40,495 bases of DNA from a virus. Positions within the stretch are counted from its first letter, which is position 1, and each line of letters opens with the position of its first letter. Shown in pieces: positions 32,779 through 39,259 of this stretch. A program made the position numbers and the translations under genes. Location: IMG/VR virus record IMGVR_UViG_3300020578_000177, positions 1 through 40,495 of that record. The stretch is one strand, 5' to 3'. The notes under the pieces are model-generated. The model was not told the DNA's origin. It ran no database searches and saw only the letters and a list, made by a program, of their open reading frames with translations.

Positions 32779-34086
32779 ATGAGCGATAAAACAGTAAAAG
32801 TACTTGTAGCTAAAGAAAAAATAGACTGCGAGCATTTGCTGGCTACATTTGTGGATCATTCACATTATGATACACTAGTTGAATACGATTGTGATTTTTA
32901 CGCACCATCAATTGATGGTATCAACAGTGAGAAGAACATTCTTTTTAAATTTAGAAAGAATTGGTTCACAAAAGAACAGCAAGATCTAGCATATAAAGGT
33001 CTTAGAGAAGCAGCAGTAGAAACTCAAAATAGAGGTATTGCAGCTGGTCCAAAGGGATCAAAGCTAGGTGGTCGTGACTGGGTGACAGAATATCAAGAAG
33101 AGATGCTTGAAGCATTAACAAAGTATGAAACTACACTTGATGGTTCAGATCCTATTACATCAATTAAATCAAAATACGAAAACAAAGATAAAACATCAGC
33201 AGGAAACAGAGGATCTGTTTGGCTTAAGAATAAAGTGACTGATGAAGGATTTGTTTTTGAAGAATGGCTAAATGAGTTGAAACAGTTATCTCGTGAAGAA
33301 ATTATTAAAGAAGCAACACGAGTAAAAACTAAATTGACTTCAACAACCTCATATGCACAAGCAGTTTGGTCAGGGATAGCAGGATTCTTTGATAGATATC
33401 CTCGTATTCCTTATGGTAGAGCGACAGCCTTTACTGAAAAGAATCCTGATAAATTTGCTATGGGCTTTCCTTTCTTACAACAACTTTCAGAAGGATTTAG
33501 AAAACTTCTGCCAGTAAGATATGGTAAGCAAAAGGAAGCTTGTGATAAAATGGATCCAAAATTTATTATTCCAGGAACTGTATTCACTACAGCAACTGTA
33601 AATAAAACTTTTAGAACAGCAGCACATAGAGATGCTGGTGATTTAAATGAAGGATTCAGTAATCTTACAGTTGTTTCAAATAATGGTAAATTTAGAGGTG
33701 GTTATCTTGTATTACCAGAATATAGAGTGGCTGTAAATATACGTCCAGGAGATTTATTATTAATTAATAATCACGAGGGTATTCACGGAAATACTGAAAT
33801 GATTGTTGAAGATCCTGAAGCAGAACGTATTTCTTTCGTTTGTTATTTCAGAGAAAAGATGCTAGAACTTGGCTCTTGGAACTATGAATTGACAAGAAAA
33901 AATTATGTTGATGACAGACGTAAAAACAAAAATCATCCTCTTCAGAGAGAACTTTGGAATGGTGTATCTGAAGGAATGTGGACAGAACAAGAATGGTATG
34001 ACTATTTAAAAGCCAGACTTGGTCAAGAAACATTATACAAATATCATCCAGAAGCTAATAAGTCCTCACTTGAAGCTTTCTTCTAG
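32779..34086 (+). CDS. TET/JBP-type 2-oxoglutarate/Fe(II) dioxygenase
   Basis: 435 residues, strong SD (AAGGAG). The C-terminal domain has the double-stranded beta-helix signature: GTVFTTATVNKTFRTAAHRD with the iron ligands His283 and Asp285, the GGYLVLPEYRVAVNIRPGDL strand pair, NNHEGIHGN with His336, and Arg350 (ERISFVCYF) for 2-oxoglutarate. The order and wording match the thymine hydroxylase domain of trypanosome JBP1/2 and the related TET family, enzymes that oxidise the methyl group of thymine or 5-methylcytosine in DNA. The N-terminal 200 residues are specific to this group and may bind DNA. Next to gp41 and followed by kinase, transferase-like, amidoligase and amidotransferase genes, it likely starts a DNA hypermodification pathway. 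Confidence 0.85.
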   Translation: MSDKTVKVLVAKEKIDCEHLLATFVDHSHYDTLVEYDCDFYAPSIDGINSEKNILFKFRKNWFTKEQQDLAYKGLREAAVETQNRGIAAGPKGSKLGGRDWVTEYQEEMLEALTKYETTLDGSDPITSIKSKYENKDKTSAGNRGSVWLKNKVTDEGFVFEEWLNELKQLSREEIIKEATRVKTKLTSTTSYAQAVWSGIAGFFDRYPRIPYGRATAFTEKNPDKFAMGFPFLQQLSEGFRKLLPVRYGKQKEACDKMDPKFIIPGTVFTTATVNKTFRTAAHRDAGDLNEGFSNLTVVSNNGKFRGGYLVLPEYRVAVNIRPGDLLLINNHEGIHGNTEMIVEDPEAERISFVCYFREKMLELGSWNYELTRKNYVDDRRKNKNHPLQRELWNGVSEGMWTEQEWYDYLKARLGQETLYKYHPEANKSSLEAFF

Positions 34087-34088
34087 TC

Positions 34089-34772
34089 ATGTGCGCAGTT
34101 ATAGGTGTTATCCTAAAACAACCAACTGAAGCACAACTACTTATTGTTAAGCGAGTATTCCTCGAATCAAAAATTCGAGGACTGCACGCAACAGGCATTT
34201 CTTATTTAAAGAATAATGAAATAATAACAATAAGAGAATCAATTCCAGCAGACCAATTCGTAAATCGTTATTTTAACAATCTTTCTGAATTCATTAATTC
34301 AGATGGCAATTTATATTTAATTGGTCACTGTCGGTATAGTACAAGTGATTTAGAATTCAATCAACCATTATATAATAAAGAAAAAAGTATAGTGCATAAT
34401 GGTGTTATATCTCAAGAGTTTCCAGAGAAATGGAAATCAATTTATGGTTATGATTGTATTACAAAGAATGACAGTGAGTTAATTTTACACTCTAATAATC
34501 CATTAAAAGAATTTAAAGATATGTCAATGGGTGTTTGTGAATTGAATACAAATAAAACTTTAAAAGCATATCGTAGTGGTAAAAGACCATTATATATTAC
34601 AGAATTATCAAATGGCTTTATTATTACATCAACAAAAGATATTGTAAAACGTTCAGAGATTAATGGTATAATGACACAAGTTGTAAATGGAGCATATGTG
34701 ACTTTATATTCGAACTTAAAAAGAGTTGATTCAATAATATCATTATCAAATAAAGATTATCAATTATGCTAA
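34089..34772 (+). CDS. Class II glutamine amidotransferase (stand-alone)
   Basis: 227 residues starting MCAVIGVIL: after Met removal Cys2 becomes the N-terminal nucleophile of the Ntn-type glutaminase, which also fixes the start codon. Other family motifs: RGLHATGIS, GHCRYSTSD (R in the glutamine site) and SIVHNGVI (N-G oxyanion residues). No synthase domain is fused, so it supplies ammonia to a partner, most plausibly the amidoligase in the next gene (overlap 7 nt). Part of the presumed DNA modification operon. Confidence 0.85.
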   Translation: MCAVIGVILKQPTEAQLLIVKRVFLESKIRGLHATGISYLKNNEIITIRESIPADQFVNRYFNNLSEFINSDGNLYLIGHCRYSTSDLEFNQPLYNKEKSIVHNGVISQEFPEKWKSIYGYDCITKNDSELILHSNNPLKEFKDMSMGVCELNTNKTLKAYRSGKRPLYITELSNGFIITSTKDIVKRSEINGIMTQVVNGAYVTLYSNLKRVDSIISLSNKDYQLC

Positions 34773-35770
34773 TGAGACATTATAAGATCGGATTATTTTC
34801 ATATGGAGTCGAATTAGAATATGGCAATTGCGAAAGAAGACTTAAAAATCTTCCAAATAATGCTCAATGGAATAATATGGATAAAACTTGTGTATCTAGT
34901 ACTGGTATCGCGAATGATCCAAAAGGAGAATTATATAATTTTGGTGGTGAGATTAATGTAGCACCAACTAACACTGTAGATGAACAATGCGATTTTATTG
35001 AAAATATTAATAAGTATTTGAGTGATAATGGTGAGAAACCAATTGTAAATTATAGAAGCAATTTACATATTCATATTCGTGTTCCAGAATTAGAAACAGA
35101 TTTAGATGCTCTTAAACAGTTATTAAAATATATACACACATATCAACAACAATTCTTTGATATGGCTGAAACAATACCAGTACCAAATAAACAATTATTA
35201 TCAGCAGAGGAATATAAATGGGCAAAGAGAAGATATAATCGTAGATTAGTATCTCATCAACATAAGCTATCAAATGAGAGAGTAGATGCTATGTTAAATG
35301 CAACAACACCATTACAATTTTGGCATGAACACGCACATAAAGATAAGAAAGGAAATCCTGCTTGGTTCCAATGTCCTCGTGCTGGTATCAACTTGCGTCA
35401 AATATTTGAAAGAACAAATACAATAGAATTCAGATGTTTTCCTGGAACATTAGATAGAGGAGAAATGCGATCAGCGATTAGATTATGTAGAGATTTTTTA
35501 GATATGGCATTTAATCATAATGAATCTTCACCATATGAACTTTTAAAAAGAAATTCAGGCTCACCAGAATATAGAGTAAACAGATACAATACTCCTAAAT
35601 TTGAACCATATGAATACGAAACAGAACAAGTTTATCAATATACAAATTTTGAGAAGAATAATCGTAAGCAAGTTAAAGAAAAACTAGATATGTTGAGAAA
35701 ACATATTAATATAGATGATATGAGTACATCATCAAAAAGTGTTTATAAAATAATAAAGGAAATGAAATGA
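34766..35770 (+). CDS. Amidoligase-family enzyme
   Basis: 334 residues. GVELEYGN near the N-terminus (G-x-E-x-E motif of the glutamine synthetase/GCS-fold amidoligases), then NLHIHIRVPE, GINLRQIFERTNTIEFRCFP and GTLDRGEMRSAIRLCRDFLD, the characteristic C-terminal block. Amidoligases join a carboxyl to an amine using ATP; in phages they often accompany class II amidotransferases. Here it could amidate or extend a carboxylated adduct on DNA or on a protein. ATGA overlap with the next gene. Confidence 0.8.
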   Translation: MLMRHYKIGLFSYGVELEYGNCERRLKNLPNNAQWNNMDKTCVSSTGIANDPKGELYNFGGEINVAPTNTVDEQCDFIENINKYLSDNGEKPIVNYRSNLHIHIRVPELETDLDALKQLLKYIHTYQQQFFDMAETIPVPNKQLLSAEEYKWAKRRYNRRLVSHQHKLSNERVDAMLNATTPLQFWHEHAHKDKKGNPAWFQCPRAGINLRQIFERTNTIEFRCFPGTLDRGEMRSAIRLCRDFLDMAFNHNESSPYELLKRNSGSPEYRVNRYNTPKFEPYEYETEQVYQYTNFEKNNRKQVKEKLDMLRKHINIDDMSTSSKSVYKIIKEMK

Positions 35771-36198
35771 AAAAAGTATTGTTTGTTTGTCTTGGAAATA
35801 TAAATCGTTCAGCTGCAGCTGAAATAATTTCTAAAAAAGACTATCCAAATTTAGAAGTAAAGTCTTGTGGACTTAAAGCAAAACAAGGACAAATTACTTC
35901 AAGGAAAATGCGTGATGCATTAGCACTTAATGGATATGAAACAAATTCTATTCGTTCAACACTCATTACAGAAGAACTAGTTAGTTGGGCTGATAAAGTA
36001 TTTTATATGGATAATTCTAATGAAAAAAGATTTAAAGAAAAATTTGGTGAATTGAATAAAGCAGAGAAACTTTCTAATTATGCAAATGTAGATAAAATAC
36101 CAGACCCACATTTTGCGAAGGCAAGCGATGGCTTATCACAGCATTTAAATGTTATTAAATTAATTCAAACTGCGTTAAAAAAATGGACTACAGAATAA
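35767..36198 (+). CDS. Low-molecular-weight protein-tyrosine-phosphatase-like enzyme
   Basis: 143 residues. Signature loop VCLGNINRSAAAE with Cys8 and Arg14 (C-x5-R-S) and catalytic Asp113 in IPDPHF. All residues for phosphatase chemistry are present. The GxxNRS variant (GNINRS) is closer to the bacterial/arsenate reductase-like side of the family. Its embedding between the amidoligase and the thymine pyrophosphorylase-like gene, with overlaps on both sides, suggests that it acts in the same pathway, for example on a phosphorylated intermediate, rather than on host signalling. That is inference. Confidence 0.8.
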   Translation: MKKVLFVCLGNINRSAAAEIISKKDYPNLEVKSCGLKAKQGQITSRKMRDALALNGYETNSIRSTLITEELVSWADKVFYMDNSNEKRFKEKFGELNKAEKLSNYANVDKIPDPHFAKASDGLSQHLNVIKLIQTALKKWTTE

Positions 36199-37202
36199 AA
36201 CAAAATAGACGTGAAGCTTTTATTCGTTGGTATGCTTGGTCTTTAGAATATAAAGATTGCGATCCAGCTGTTTGGTTGACTAACTATCTTCATGAAAGAT
36301 ATGAACATAACGACGAACAAAAATTATGGTTAGCTTGGCTTTATGGAAACACATATAATTTACCAACAGCTTGGTTATTGTTTAATGAATTTCCTGATTT
36401 TGAATTAGCTACTGTGGATAGAATAGAGAAATGGAATACTAATAATTACTCTCGTTTAAGATATCAAACAGATACCAAATGGAATAAAGGTCATCTTCCT
36501 AAAATGTTTGAATCATATAAAACATTTATTGGATCAAACAATCAAAGAGATGTTATAGAAAGTTATTATGAGGATGATAAAGAAAGTAATTTTAATTGTC
36601 TATGGAATATAATTAAGAGTAATCTATATAAGTTTGGTAGATATTCAACTTGGTTTTATCTTCAACATTTAAAACATACAGCAGCAGTAGAAATAACACC
36701 AACTTCTCTTATGTTTAATGATTACAGCGGATCTCGCTCTCATCGTAATGGTTTTCTTTATGTGATTGGGAAAGATGATGATATAGATAAAAAATTAACT
36801 TCTAAAGAATATAATAATTTAGAAGCACAAGCAAAAGATATAACTGTTGAAATGAAATCAAGATTTAAACATTTAGCAGAACAAGTTGACTTTTTTACAA
36901 TGGAAACTTGTCTTTGTTCTTACAAAAAAATATTTAGAGAATCTCATAGTCGTTATCTTGGCTATTATCTTGATAGACAAGCTGAAGAAATTATTAATGC
37001 TGAAAATGACGGATGGTATGGTATTGATTGGGATGTATTATGGCAAGCAAGAAAAGAAACAATAGATTCAAGATTAAATATTAAGAGTGGTGTAGATAAA
37101 ACAAAATATAAACAATTTTATAATACAGGAAATATACAGAATTTAAACTGGATGTTTAGTGATGAAAAAACAAACTTAATAGGATTAGAGGCAATTCAAT
37201 GA
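36183..37202 (+). CDS. Alpha-glutamyl/putrescinyl-thymine pyrophosphorylase-like (HMUDK helical-domain) protein
   Basis: 339 residues, helical. Diagnostic stretches as I recall them for this phage family: RREAFIRWYAWSLEYKDCDP, LWLAWLYGNTYNLPTAW, NTNNYSRLRYQTDTKWNKGH, LYKFGRYSTWFYLQHL, and DYSGSRSHRNGFLYVIGKDD. The family was described in phages with hypermodified thymine, and is linked to the step after phosphorylation of 5-hydroxymethyluracil in DNA, or as helical partner of the hmU DNA kinase. ATGA overlap with the P-loop kinase gene that follows supports the pairing. Family assignment is good; the exact reaction is inferred. Confidence 0.75.
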   Translation: MDYRIKQNRREAFIRWYAWSLEYKDCDPAVWLTNYLHERYEHNDEQKLWLAWLYGNTYNLPTAWLLFNEFPDFELATVDRIEKWNTNNYSRLRYQTDTKWNKGHLPKMFESYKTFIGSNNQRDVIESYYEDDKESNFNCLWNIIKSNLYKFGRYSTWFYLQHLKHTAAVEITPTSLMFNDYSGSRSHRNGFLYVIGKDDDIDKKLTSKEYNNLEAQAKDITVEMKSRFKHLAEQVDFFTMETCLCSYKKIFRESHSRYLGYYLDRQAEEIINAENDGWYGIDWDVLWQARKETIDSRLNIKSGVDKTKYKQFYNTGNIQNLNWMFSDEKTNLIGLEAIQ

Positions 37203-37753
37203 GAAAGATTATAGCAGTTGGTGGTAATCCAGGATCTGGTAAAACAACATTATTTAGAAAGTTTATGGAGAATAAACAATGGGAAATGTATAAAGACAAA
37301 TTAGTACACTCTCATTTTAATGCAGAATATAATCTTCATATACTTGGAAGATATGATGATGGTGAAACCTTTGCAGGAACAGATAGATTGTCAATGGCAG
37401 TACAGCCACAACTTCAATCTTGGTGTGTTTCAAATACATATAATATTTTATTTGAAGGAGATCGCGTGTTTAATTCTTCATTTTTAGAATTTTGTTCTAA
37501 ATTACCTGACACTACATTAGAAATAATTTATTTAAATGTAGAAAAAACTACACTACAAGAAAGATATAAAGAAAGAAACTCAAACCAATCTGAGAAATTT
37601 CTTCAAGGAAGAGAGACTAAATATAATAACATACTCGCAAACTTTGATTTAAGACCACATATAATTGAATATGATAACAAAAATTTAGAAAATCAAAGTA
37701 TAGTTTTAAAATATTTAAACGATACACTATGCCCAGCAACTACTTCCATTTAA
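37199..37753 (+). CDS. P-loop kinase, probable 5-hydroxymethyluracil DNA kinase
   Basis: 184 residues. Walker A GGNPGSGKTT (8-17), then a Walker B-like NILFEGDRVFN, and a lid-type R-rich helix (LQERYKERNSNQ). The size and the immediate pairing with the pyrophosphorylase-like helical protein match phage hmU DNA kinases, which phosphorylate 5-hydroxymethyluracil in polymeric DNA. An ordinary nucleotide or small-molecule kinase remains possible. Overlaps the next gene by 25 nt. Confidence 0.75.
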   Translation: MRKIIAVGGNPGSGKTTLFRKFMENKQWEMYKDKLVHSHFNAEYNLHILGRYDDGETFAGTDRLSMAVQPQLQSWCVSNTYNILFEGDRVFNSSFLEFCSKLPDTTLEIIYLNVEKTTLQERYKERNSNQSEKFLQGRETKYNNILANFDLRPHIIEYDNKNLENQSIVLKYLNDTLCPATTSI

Positions 37754-38319
37754 ATTTACCATTTAAATATCCTTTAAACGAAGAAGGAATGGAATGGTTT
37801 TTTAATTTAAAACCTTGTTTCCTACAAGTACCAAAGGAATATTTTAATCCAGAAGCTGTTGAATTTTTTAAATCTAAAAGATTATTATATTGGGATGCTG
37901 AAGTATTTTCATTTCCTGAAAATTATAAAATGGAAATACATGTTGATGCTGTTGAGTTTTCAAATAAATGTAAATTAAATTGGGCTTATAGTGAAGGTGA
38001 GCATTATAATGTTTGGTATAAACCAAAATCAAATTGGTCACCAAAATCAACAGATGGTGAACAGGATGATGGACGTTATGATGAGTATAGCTACAGTTTT
38101 GACGACAATGAAGTAGATGAAGTTGAAAGAACTACTGTAAGAACACCAACTTGTATAGTAAGTGGTCAACCACATAGTGTAATTACTTTTAACGAACCAC
38201 GTAAAGCAATCTCTGTCACTCTATACCCACTAGGAACTAACCCACCATCCTTACCAAAGGATTGGGGAATACCATTAGAAAATATGAGAGAGGTTTTAAA
38301 TGTTTATATTGTGGATTAA
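37729..38319 (+). CDS. Putative Fe(II)-dependent oxygenase, paralog A
   Basis: 196 residues. EIHVDAVEFSNKCKLNWAYS gives an H-x-D pair (His71, Asp73); SGQPHSVITFNEPRKAISVT gives a distal His149 and Arg158, in the order expected for a 2-oxoglutarate/Fe(II) cupin-like barrel. An acidic loop (about residues 105-135) interrupts the barrel. Shares H-V-D-A, K-L/M-N, W-Y-K-x-K and the P-H block with the protein at 38687. Substrate unknown; the place in the operon suggests a later oxidation in the same modification pathway. Confidence 0.55.
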   Translation: MPSNYFHLNLPFKYPLNEEGMEWFFNLKPCFLQVPKEYFNPEAVEFFKSKRLLYWDAEVFSFPENYKMEIHVDAVEFSNKCKLNWAYSEGEHYNVWYKPKSNWSPKSTDGEQDDGRYDEYSYSFDDNEVDEVERTTVRTPTCIVSGQPHSVITFNEPRKAISVTLYPLGTNPPSLPKDWGIPLENMREVLNVYIVD

Positions 38320-38494: not shown

Positions 38495-38690
38495 GATTCG
38501 TTCGAATAAAAAGAACAATTTAAATGAACCTGTGATTACAGTAAAACAAGGATCTAAAAATACATATTGTCACGAGGTGATATTAAAAGGTTCAAGTCGT
38601 GTAATTTATGGTGGCAACGATAAACCTTTATTAAATTGTGGTGCAAGAGTTGTAATTGAAACTGAAGATGAAGTGGAGATTATACGATGA
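38457..38690 (+). CDS. Conserved small hypothetical protein
   Basis: 77 residues from ATG 38457 (MKKKTQIHVNQHKIRSNKKN); a longer frame begins at 38403 inside the membrane protein gene but its extra residues are a shadow translation. Core: PVITVKQGSKNTYCHEVILK, GSSRVIYGGNDKPLLNCGAR, VVIETEDEVEII. This small beta-rich protein type (N-x-H-x-I-R-S-N, P-L-L-N-C-G-A-R) is common in T4-like marine phages; function unknown. ATGA overlap with the next gene. Confidence 0.6.
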   Translation: MKKKTQIHVNQHKIRSNKKNNLNEPVITVKQGSKNTYCHEVILKGSSRVIYGGNDKPLLNCGARVVIETEDEVEIIR

Positions 38691-39259
38691 ATAATTTTTT
38701 TTTTCATTTAAAAGAACAATTTGATCCATTACAAAATATGGAAATAATTAAAAAATTTCCTGTAGGAAGACATGTTTTAAATAAAAACTATGCATCATCT
38801 AATCTTAAATCTTTTGAAACTGATATATTCAAAATTGGTCAAATAGAATTATTCGTCACTCAAGCTGGAGGAAGATTAGGTACTCATGTCGACGCAAACT
38901 CACCAAGTGGTTCAATTAAAATGAATTTCAGTTATGGCGATTCTAATGCTTATATGGAATGGTATAAATTTAAAAACGGATTTGCCATACCTATATATGA
39001 GTGGATTGATGATAAAATTGATGATACAGGTTCTGAACGTCCAGAAACTTTAAGATATCATGATAATGACTGCGAACTTATTCGTTCAGAACTTATAAGA
39101 AGACCATCAGTTGTAAATGTTTCAATTCCTCATGGATTAAATTGTACAAACAGTGATATAAAATGTATGACTGTTGCTGTTCTTTTCGAACAATATTTAG
39201 ATAATGAATGGAAGAAAATCACAATGTCAAAAGCATTAGAATTGTGGGGGAATAGATGA
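38687..39259 (+). CDS. Putative Fe(II)-dependent oxygenase, paralog B
   Basis: 190 residues. GRLGTHVDANSPSGSIKMNF carries His67-x-Asp69, and SVVNVSIPHGLNCTNSDIKC carries His149, giving an H-x-D...H triad; the Arg/Lys for 2-oxoglutarate is less clear than in paralog A. NAYMEWYKFKNG corresponds to HYNVWYKPKSN in paralog A. Clearly a divergent duplicate of 37729-38319. Could be an asparaginyl/aspartyl hydroxylase-like or DNA-acting oxygenase. ATGA overlaps on both sides. Confidence 0.55.
   Translation: MNNFFFHLKEQFDPLQNMEIIKKFPVGRHVLNKNYASSNLKSFETDIFKIGQIELFVTQAGGRLGTHVDANSPSGSIKMNFSYGDSNAYMEWYKFKNGFAIPIYEWIDDKIDDTGSERPETLRYHDNDCELIRSELIRRPSVVNVSIPHGLNCTNSDIKCMTVAVLFEQYLDNEWKKITMSKALELWGNR

Follow-up and report, generated by a model that had tools for sequence, protein, structure and literature searches.

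A six-gene operon of a T4-like phage as a candidate route to post-replicative thymine hypermodification

Hypermodified thymidines of phages arise when 5-hydroxymethyldeoxyuridine (5-hydroxymethyl-dU, 5hmdU) in DNA receives a phosphate from a 5hmdU DNA kinase and is then modified by transferases (PMC6449724). In Rhodococcus phage Tonitrus, a cluster of a JBP-type dioxygenase, a transferase of the amino acid:DNA transferase (ADDT) family and a kinase has been annotated as a thymidine hypermodification locus (PMC11955845). Here we analyzed the viral record IMGVR_UViG_3300020578_000177 over its entire 40,495 bases, which we refer to as the window. It carries an operon in which these three gene types are accompanied by a class II glutaminase (GATII), an amidoligase and a low-molecular-weight (LMW) phosphatase. 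We consider it probable that this operon encodes a post-replicative thymine hypermodification pathway comprising hydroxylation, phosphorylation and nucleophile transfer, through which a nitrogen-containing side chain would be built on thymine. A preliminary description of the locus had presented this core as a new idea; it is already present in Tonitrus (PMC11955845) and in Mycobacterium phage Zemanar.

The operon follows the genes for UvsX and a gp41-like helicase within a replication region of T4-like type, and further T4-like core genes surround it (a gp23-like head protein, UvsW, gp46, gp44 and gp43), in agreement with the initial assignment to a T4-like phage. Because 40.5 kb is short for such a phage, the record represents a genome fragment, and the lack of a hydroxymethylase or methylase gene in it is therefore little informative; larger relatives were used instead. 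The six open reading frames at 32779-37753 and their proposed catalytic residues were confirmed. They are all encoded on the + strand, adjacent to each other or overlapping by 4-20 nt, and no terminator-like site between them scored above chance:

32779..34086, + strand: JBP/TET-type 2-oxoglutarate/Fe(II) dioxygenase, 435 aa (PF12851), predicted thymine hydroxylase acting on DNA
34089..34772, + strand: stand-alone class II glutaminase (GATII), 227 aa (PF13522), predicted ammonia source, core part
34766..35770, + strand: Amidoligase_2-family ATP-dependent ligase, 334 aa (PF12224), variable tailoring part
35767..36198, + strand: LMW phosphatase, 143 aa (PF01451), tailoring part in place of a GNAT gene
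36183..37202, + strand: ADDT, amino acid:DNA transferase family, 339 aa (PF18724)
37199..37753, + strand: P-loop kinase, 184 aa, predicted to phosphorylate 5-hydroxymethyl-dU in DNA

Judged by its sequence, the product of the fifth gene is an ADDT belonging to clade 2 of the old aGPT-PPlase families. It matches PF18724 in Pfam (1.5e-22; 80.9 bits versus a cut-off of 26.2), and a protein of Salmonella phage Vi01, which itself scores 198 bits against PF18724, is a full-length homologue (27.7% over 98%, 2e-22). The best BFVD fold matches of its AF2 model (pLDDT 86) are ADDT proteins (TM 0.55-0.82), while no convincing relative was found among solved structures by sequence or fold, the best fold match being an AGOG DNA glycosylase (E 1.2). 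The protein had been described as thymine pyrophosphorylase-like or as an HMUDK helical protein; the HMUDK helical-domain family was not matched.

The dioxygenase matches Tet_JBP (PF12851; 5.5e-21, 74.9 bits versus a cut-off of 34.9) and phrog_24024 (2.6e-172), and its profile reaches TET2 (2.8e-7). The predicted catalytic residues H283, D285, H336 and R350 are invariant in all 19 homologues compared, one of which is TET-type. Most likely, the enzyme hydroxylates thymine within the phage's own DNA. That thymine rather than 5-methylcytosine would be the target is suggested, indirectly, by the lack of a C5-methylase in large relatives. As to the kinase, the original P-loop assignment held: the protein matches dNK in Pfam (1.8e-7), Walker A, EGDR and lid arginines are conserved in the alignment, and its AF2 model (pLDDT 88) adopts a nucleotide-kinase fold. 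The match to Ploopntkinase3 (PF18751; 2.8e-5, 24.2 bits) falls under the cut-off of 27, while its homologue Terij gp3 is a PF18751 member (69.5 bits) and Zemanar gp4 scores 239. An assignment to HMUD2 (PF18747) was rejected, with no Pfam match, a negligible hhalign result (20%) and no HMUD2 in JBP records. From these profile comparisons, the window kinase belongs to a P-loop family other than the ViI HMUD2 type. Single-sequence searches of the PDB with the kinase and with the glutaminase gave no match, whereas profile searches did.

Two side observations concern the kinase gene. In Methylophilales phage Melnitz-3 (L127, 2457-6537), an HhaI-like methylase, a Tet_JBP protein, a 427-aa protein and a homologue of the window kinase are encoded in a row, possibly for a phosphorylation-based hypermodification of 5-hydroxymethylcytosine. 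In one cassette (L047:6777-8201), a 474-aa protein, radical SAM-like as judged by eye from a CxxxCxxC motif, is encoded between ADDT and kinase.

How ADDT phages obtain the hydroxyl group can be approached through their gene content. Phages ViI, Det7 and phiA8-29 encode an ADDT, HMUD2 and a divergent thymidylate synthase (TS)-family protein (40-55 bits), which in the ViI pathway is established as the hydroxymethylase, and Tet_JBP is absent from all three. Montesquieu likewise carries a gene annotated as thymidylate synthase/pyrimidine hydroxymethylase and no Tet_JBP; its transferase matches that of the window, yet falls under the PF18724 cut-off. The JBP+ADDT records G006 (177 kb) and G007 (162 kb) carry ThyX; PF00303, the TS/hydroxymethylase family, is absent from both and from G008, and the C5-cytosine methylase family PF00145 and HMUD2 are absent from G006 and G007. 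In Cr30, ThyA looks ordinary (373 bits), and Zemanar combines Tet_JBP (below cut-off), ADDT and a Ploopntkinase3 kinase without a TS-family gene. In none of 17 other JBP records, among them the long G005-G007 and the complete DLP6, Cr30, C48C1 and S-CBWM1, was a C5-cytosine methylase found. ADDT phages thus fall into two exclusive sets, with either a divergent TS-like gene and no JBP or a JBP together with ThyX or ordinary ThyA, an exclusivity that rests on about ten records rather than a census and includes IMG/VR records without a completeness estimate. The simplest reading is that two exclusive routes feed the same transferase family, and the predicted hydroxylation of thymine in DNA is thereby well supported. 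This agrees with the earlier proposal of hydroxylation on the polymer followed by kinase and transferase; the lack of cytosine methylase and hydroxymethylase, initially noted for the window, extends to large relatives.

The linkage of the core genes is conserved. Among viral contigs carrying an ADDT of this clade, and counting loci with enough sequence, GATII was found upstream in 50/50, JBP in 27/27 and the kinase downstream in 59/60, the lone miss (L031) being a distance/overlap artefact at a locus where the kinase exists. A GATII search of IMG/VR confirmed 565 glutaminase-family stretches and yielded 76 new loci; where sequence allowed the test, JBP was present in 75/75 and ADDT in 58/59. 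At L197, where an amidoligase is present, 3' sequence extends for only 2.9 kb. Such linkage of GATII, JBP, ADDT and kinase is far stronger than chance would produce and excludes a random neighbourhood, so the synteny proposed as a check holds in related environmental phages.

In contrast to the core, the remaining genes vary. The 124 loci with both GATII and ADDT, some of which overlap on the same contigs and which represent 82 distinct GATII proteins, comprise 87 with GNATa and no amidoligase, 28 with amidoligase plus GNATb, 8 with amidoligase plus LMW phosphatase and 1 with a fused gene; these sets are mutually exclusive. The LMW phosphatase occurs only together with an amidoligase (8 loci, the window included). 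These counts and their exclusivity define JBP, GATII, ADDT and kinase as the core, and amidoligase, phosphatase and GNATs as tailoring parts. Amidoligase was detected in 36 of the 124 cassettes and was not detectable in the other 88, while glutaminase is found in every testable cassette of the ADDT clade; a core glutaminase beside a variable amidoligase argues against the glutaminase existing to serve the amidoligase, and the pair as a final amidation unit, as first suggested, is not upheld. GATII-bearing ADDTs also cluster in the tree (94/91; 92% of bootstrap trees), in which long branches occur elsewhere, and JBP phages with other ADDTs (L003, L029, L033, L036) have no GATII alongside. Between the GNAT gene and ADDT, some cassettes (L103:4153-4839 and many GATII loci) encode a protein of about 225 aa that belongs to no family and looks nuclease-like by eye.

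Family assignments of the three additional proteins stood up as well. The glutaminase matches GATase_6 (PF13522, 3.4e-8), with purF as the best curated model (1.7e-6). Its C2, already proposed as the nucleophile, R82, N104-G105 and D128 align with the catalytic set of GlmS in a weak match (E 0.013), and the catalytic motifs are kept in 88 of 95 distinct full-length homologues. The amidoligase exceeds the cut-off of Amidoligase_2 (PF12224; 9.6e-8, 32.6 bits versus 22), with E16, E18, R105, E221 and R223 conserved in the alignment. The phosphatase matches LMWPc (PF01451; 1.3e-17, 64.8 bits versus 23.2) and contains the CX5R(S/T) loop C8LGNINR14S and the acid D113; its nearest solved structures are an LMW-PTP and the arginine phosphatase YwlE. 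A GATII+amidoligase pair, with no ADDT, is also found in the LUZ24-like Pseudomonas phage tf. In Vibrio phage 2.275.O (L129, 5896-11104), a homologue of the window amidoligase is encoded beside 7-deazaguanine genes and a 'nucleophile aminohydrolase', a context in which the amidoligase family may serve other DNA modifications.

The cassette occupies a precisely bounded, exchangeable slot:

34093..37737, + strand: exchangeable slot in which blastn homology to sister contigs is broken
37729..38319, + strand: flanking gene at the end of the slot, outside the pathway and common to sister phages

In blastn comparisons with six sister contigs, homology ends at 34092, six bases past the JBP stop codon, and restarts at 37738 inside the next gene. 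The sister phages encode a JBP with about 90% identity to that of the window but no ADDT, GATII or kinase in the slot; instead, it contains genes for two proteins, one of 334 aa that is weakly glycosyltransferase-like and one of 149 aa. Three further loci (L025-L027) carry the kinase alone, with homology restarting at 37218. The flanking gene is 74-80% identical in sister phages regardless of the cassette. These differences within one slot indicate that different decorating modules are swapped behind one hydroxylase.

From the families, catalytic residues, synteny and gene exclusivity described above, we infer every reaction of the following scheme. The JBP-type dioxygenase would act on thymine in phage DNA and hydroxylate its 5-methyl group, giving 5-hydroxymethyl-dU, the P-loop kinase would add a phosphate to its hydroxyl, and a nitrogen nucleophile would displace the (pyro)phosphate via the ADDT. 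Based on the families, the exclusivity and published pathway logic, we hold these three steps together to be highly probable. In the GATII-bearing clade, the nucleophile we favour is ammonia from the adjacent glutaminase, which would yield 5-aminomethyl-dU, an intermediate base that to our knowledge is known nowhere else in DNA. This fourth step is a real possibility somewhat short of an even chance; it follows from the strict GATII-ADDT coupling, the absence of GATII beside divergent ADDTs, the grouping of GATII-bearing ADDTs and the analogy to PurF, which combines a glutaminase with pyrophosphate displacement, a like chemistry that would here be carried out on separate chains. The amidoligase would then acylate the amine with an amino acid or another carboxylate, with the phosphatase as a helper that may remove the phosphate left by the kinase; elsewhere, a GNAT, or an amidoligase with a different GNAT, would perform the acylation. 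We regard this fifth step as slightly less likely than the fourth. The combined model, in which a glutaminase-fed, split-PurF-like ADDT makes 5-aminomethyl-dU and the three tailoring sets lead to at least three different N-acylated bases across environmental phages, is put forward as tentative.

Several points weigh against this scheme. The window itself is a fragment, and the substrate of the kinase is deduced from linkage, its HMUD2 match being negligible and its PF18751 score under the cut-off. ADDT relatives of known activity (the ViI/M6 work of Lee et al.) reportedly use amino acids and not ammonia, which the name of PF18724 fits. The ADDT might thus attach an amino acid to phospho-hydroxymethyluracil, and glutaminase and amidoligase might amidate its carboxyl to form an amino-acid-amide thymine. 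Both genes overlap in the window and are paired in phage tf, and CmoY (PMC12783734) is an example of a phage ligase that uses ATP to form an amide on a modified base in DNA. However, the glutaminase is retained in the 88 cassettes without detectable amidoligase and tracks the ADDT clade, which makes this outcome unlikely. The tf-type pairs without ADDT in LUZ24-like phages also mean that glutaminase and amidoligase may form an independent unit, so that JBP, kinase and ADDT would modify DNA and glutaminase, amidoligase and phosphatase would form a separate host-takeover or peptide/envelope-modifying unit within the operon. The resemblance of the LMW phosphatase to the protein phosphatases Wzb and YwlE is in line with such a division, but the adjacency of GATII to JBP and ADDT at practically all testable loci of the GATII search is hard to explain by it, and we consider it improbable.

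The remaining alternatives concern the base and the level at which it is modified. If the dioxygenase were a TET acting on 5-methylcytosine, the later steps would build on 5-hydroxymethylcytosine. In the Melnitz phages, a homologous kinase accompanies an HhaI-like methylase and a Tet_JBP protein, so the window kinase family may also act on cytosine; the absence of C5-cytosine methylase from the 17 other JBP records, long and complete ones among them, renders a cytosine target very improbable here. The kinase might also act on free nucleotides as a dNMP kinase, in keeping with its fold and dNK match, with an undetected enzyme producing hydroxymethyl-dU at the nucleotide level. Since the large relatives lack a TS-like hydroxymethylase and carry ThyX or ordinary ThyA, and JBP is present at all testable loci, we give this explanation hardly any credence. 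The reading we favour is the thymine pathway acting on polymeric DNA. A defence-system function was also considered and rejected, with only weak, superfamily-level PADLOC matches.

Further observations were made around the JBP genes. The glycosyltransferase-like and 149-aa genes in the slot (L009:10299-11746, and the same slot in L007-L023) might place a base-J-like sugar on phage thymine. In Synechococcus phage S-CBWM1 (L004, 3729-7921), JBP adjoins a TET-associated glycosyltransferase and a sugar nucleotidyltransferase; its 139 kb genome has no C5-methylase, making it a candidate for glycosylated hydroxymethyluracil. ParB-like domain proteins recur beside JBP systems (Zemanar, L216; Terij, L217; HTVC112P, L215; L170:8102-9412) and have likewise been reported for CmoX systems (PMC12783734). 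Downstream of the slot, also in sister phages, 37729-38319 and 38687-39259 encode small related proteins (about 24% identical) that have no Pfam match and display HxD...H as in 2-oxoglutarate/Fe(II) oxygenases (H71, D73, H149). Public names can be misleading: JBP-type proteins are called 'SNF2 DNA repair protein' or 'queuine tRNA-ribosyltransferase', and kinase homologues 'terminase small subunit' (L001, L003, L004; phrog_6059; phrog_800).

Many such systems were reportedly predicted by Iyer et al. in 2013. In the limited open-access literature, we found no report of GATII, Amidoligase_2 or LMW phosphatase together with ADDT. What is new is that a GATII-bearing T4-like clade is widespread, that its tailoring genes come in three exclusive sets, that another module is exchanged into precisely the same slot, and that the two routes exclude each other. 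The pathway would represent a second, post-replicative entry into thymidine hypermodification, using JBP instead of hydroxymethyl-dUTP and a kinase family of its own, in T4-like environmental phages that form an abundant group. New bases are predicted to arise from a common intermediate through swappable tailoring genes. This logic can be tested directly thanks to the sister phages, whose slot holds a sugar-type module, and the enzymes could serve as tools for writing amines onto DNA thymines.

Among described systems, Tonitrus and Zemanar share Tet_JBP, ADDT (aGPT-PPlase2) and P-loop kinase in one operon with the window, but have a ParB-like first gene where the window has glutaminase, amidoligase and phosphatase, and their sequences are very distant. 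Kinetoplastid base J, made by JBP1/2 and a glucosyltransferase, likewise involves DNA thymine oxidised by a JBP-type enzyme and then decorated, as proposed here; its decoration is a sugar rather than the product of kinase and ADDT, so that the sister phages with the glycosyltransferase-like gene are closer to it. Phage TET hypermodification of 5-methylcytosine (TAGT systems; Melnitz) uses the same oxygenase superfamily and oxidation on the polymer, but requires a C5-methylase, which is absent from the large relatives of the window. The CmoA/CmoX/CmoY 5-carboxymethylcytosine amides of phage S-B43 also involve an ATP-dependent amide bond on a DNA base, and one CmoY cluster contains a glutaminase domain (PMC12783734); there, the handle is cytosine and the ligase is asparagine-synthetase-like, whereas the window has Amidoligase_2. 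The thymidine hypermodification of Salmonella phage ViI (5-NeOmdU), a kind of system also represented by M6 and phi W-14, shares with the window a homologous ADDT (that of Vi01) and the logic of hmU kinase followed by transferase (PMC6449724). It relies on a TS-like enzyme and the HMUD2 kinase, while the window has JBP and a different P-loop kinase family and its relatives carry ThyX, and, unlike in the window, no glutaminase, amidoligase or LMW phosphatase is annotated near the ViI ADDT. The window pathway is most likely related to, yet different from, the route of phage ViI.

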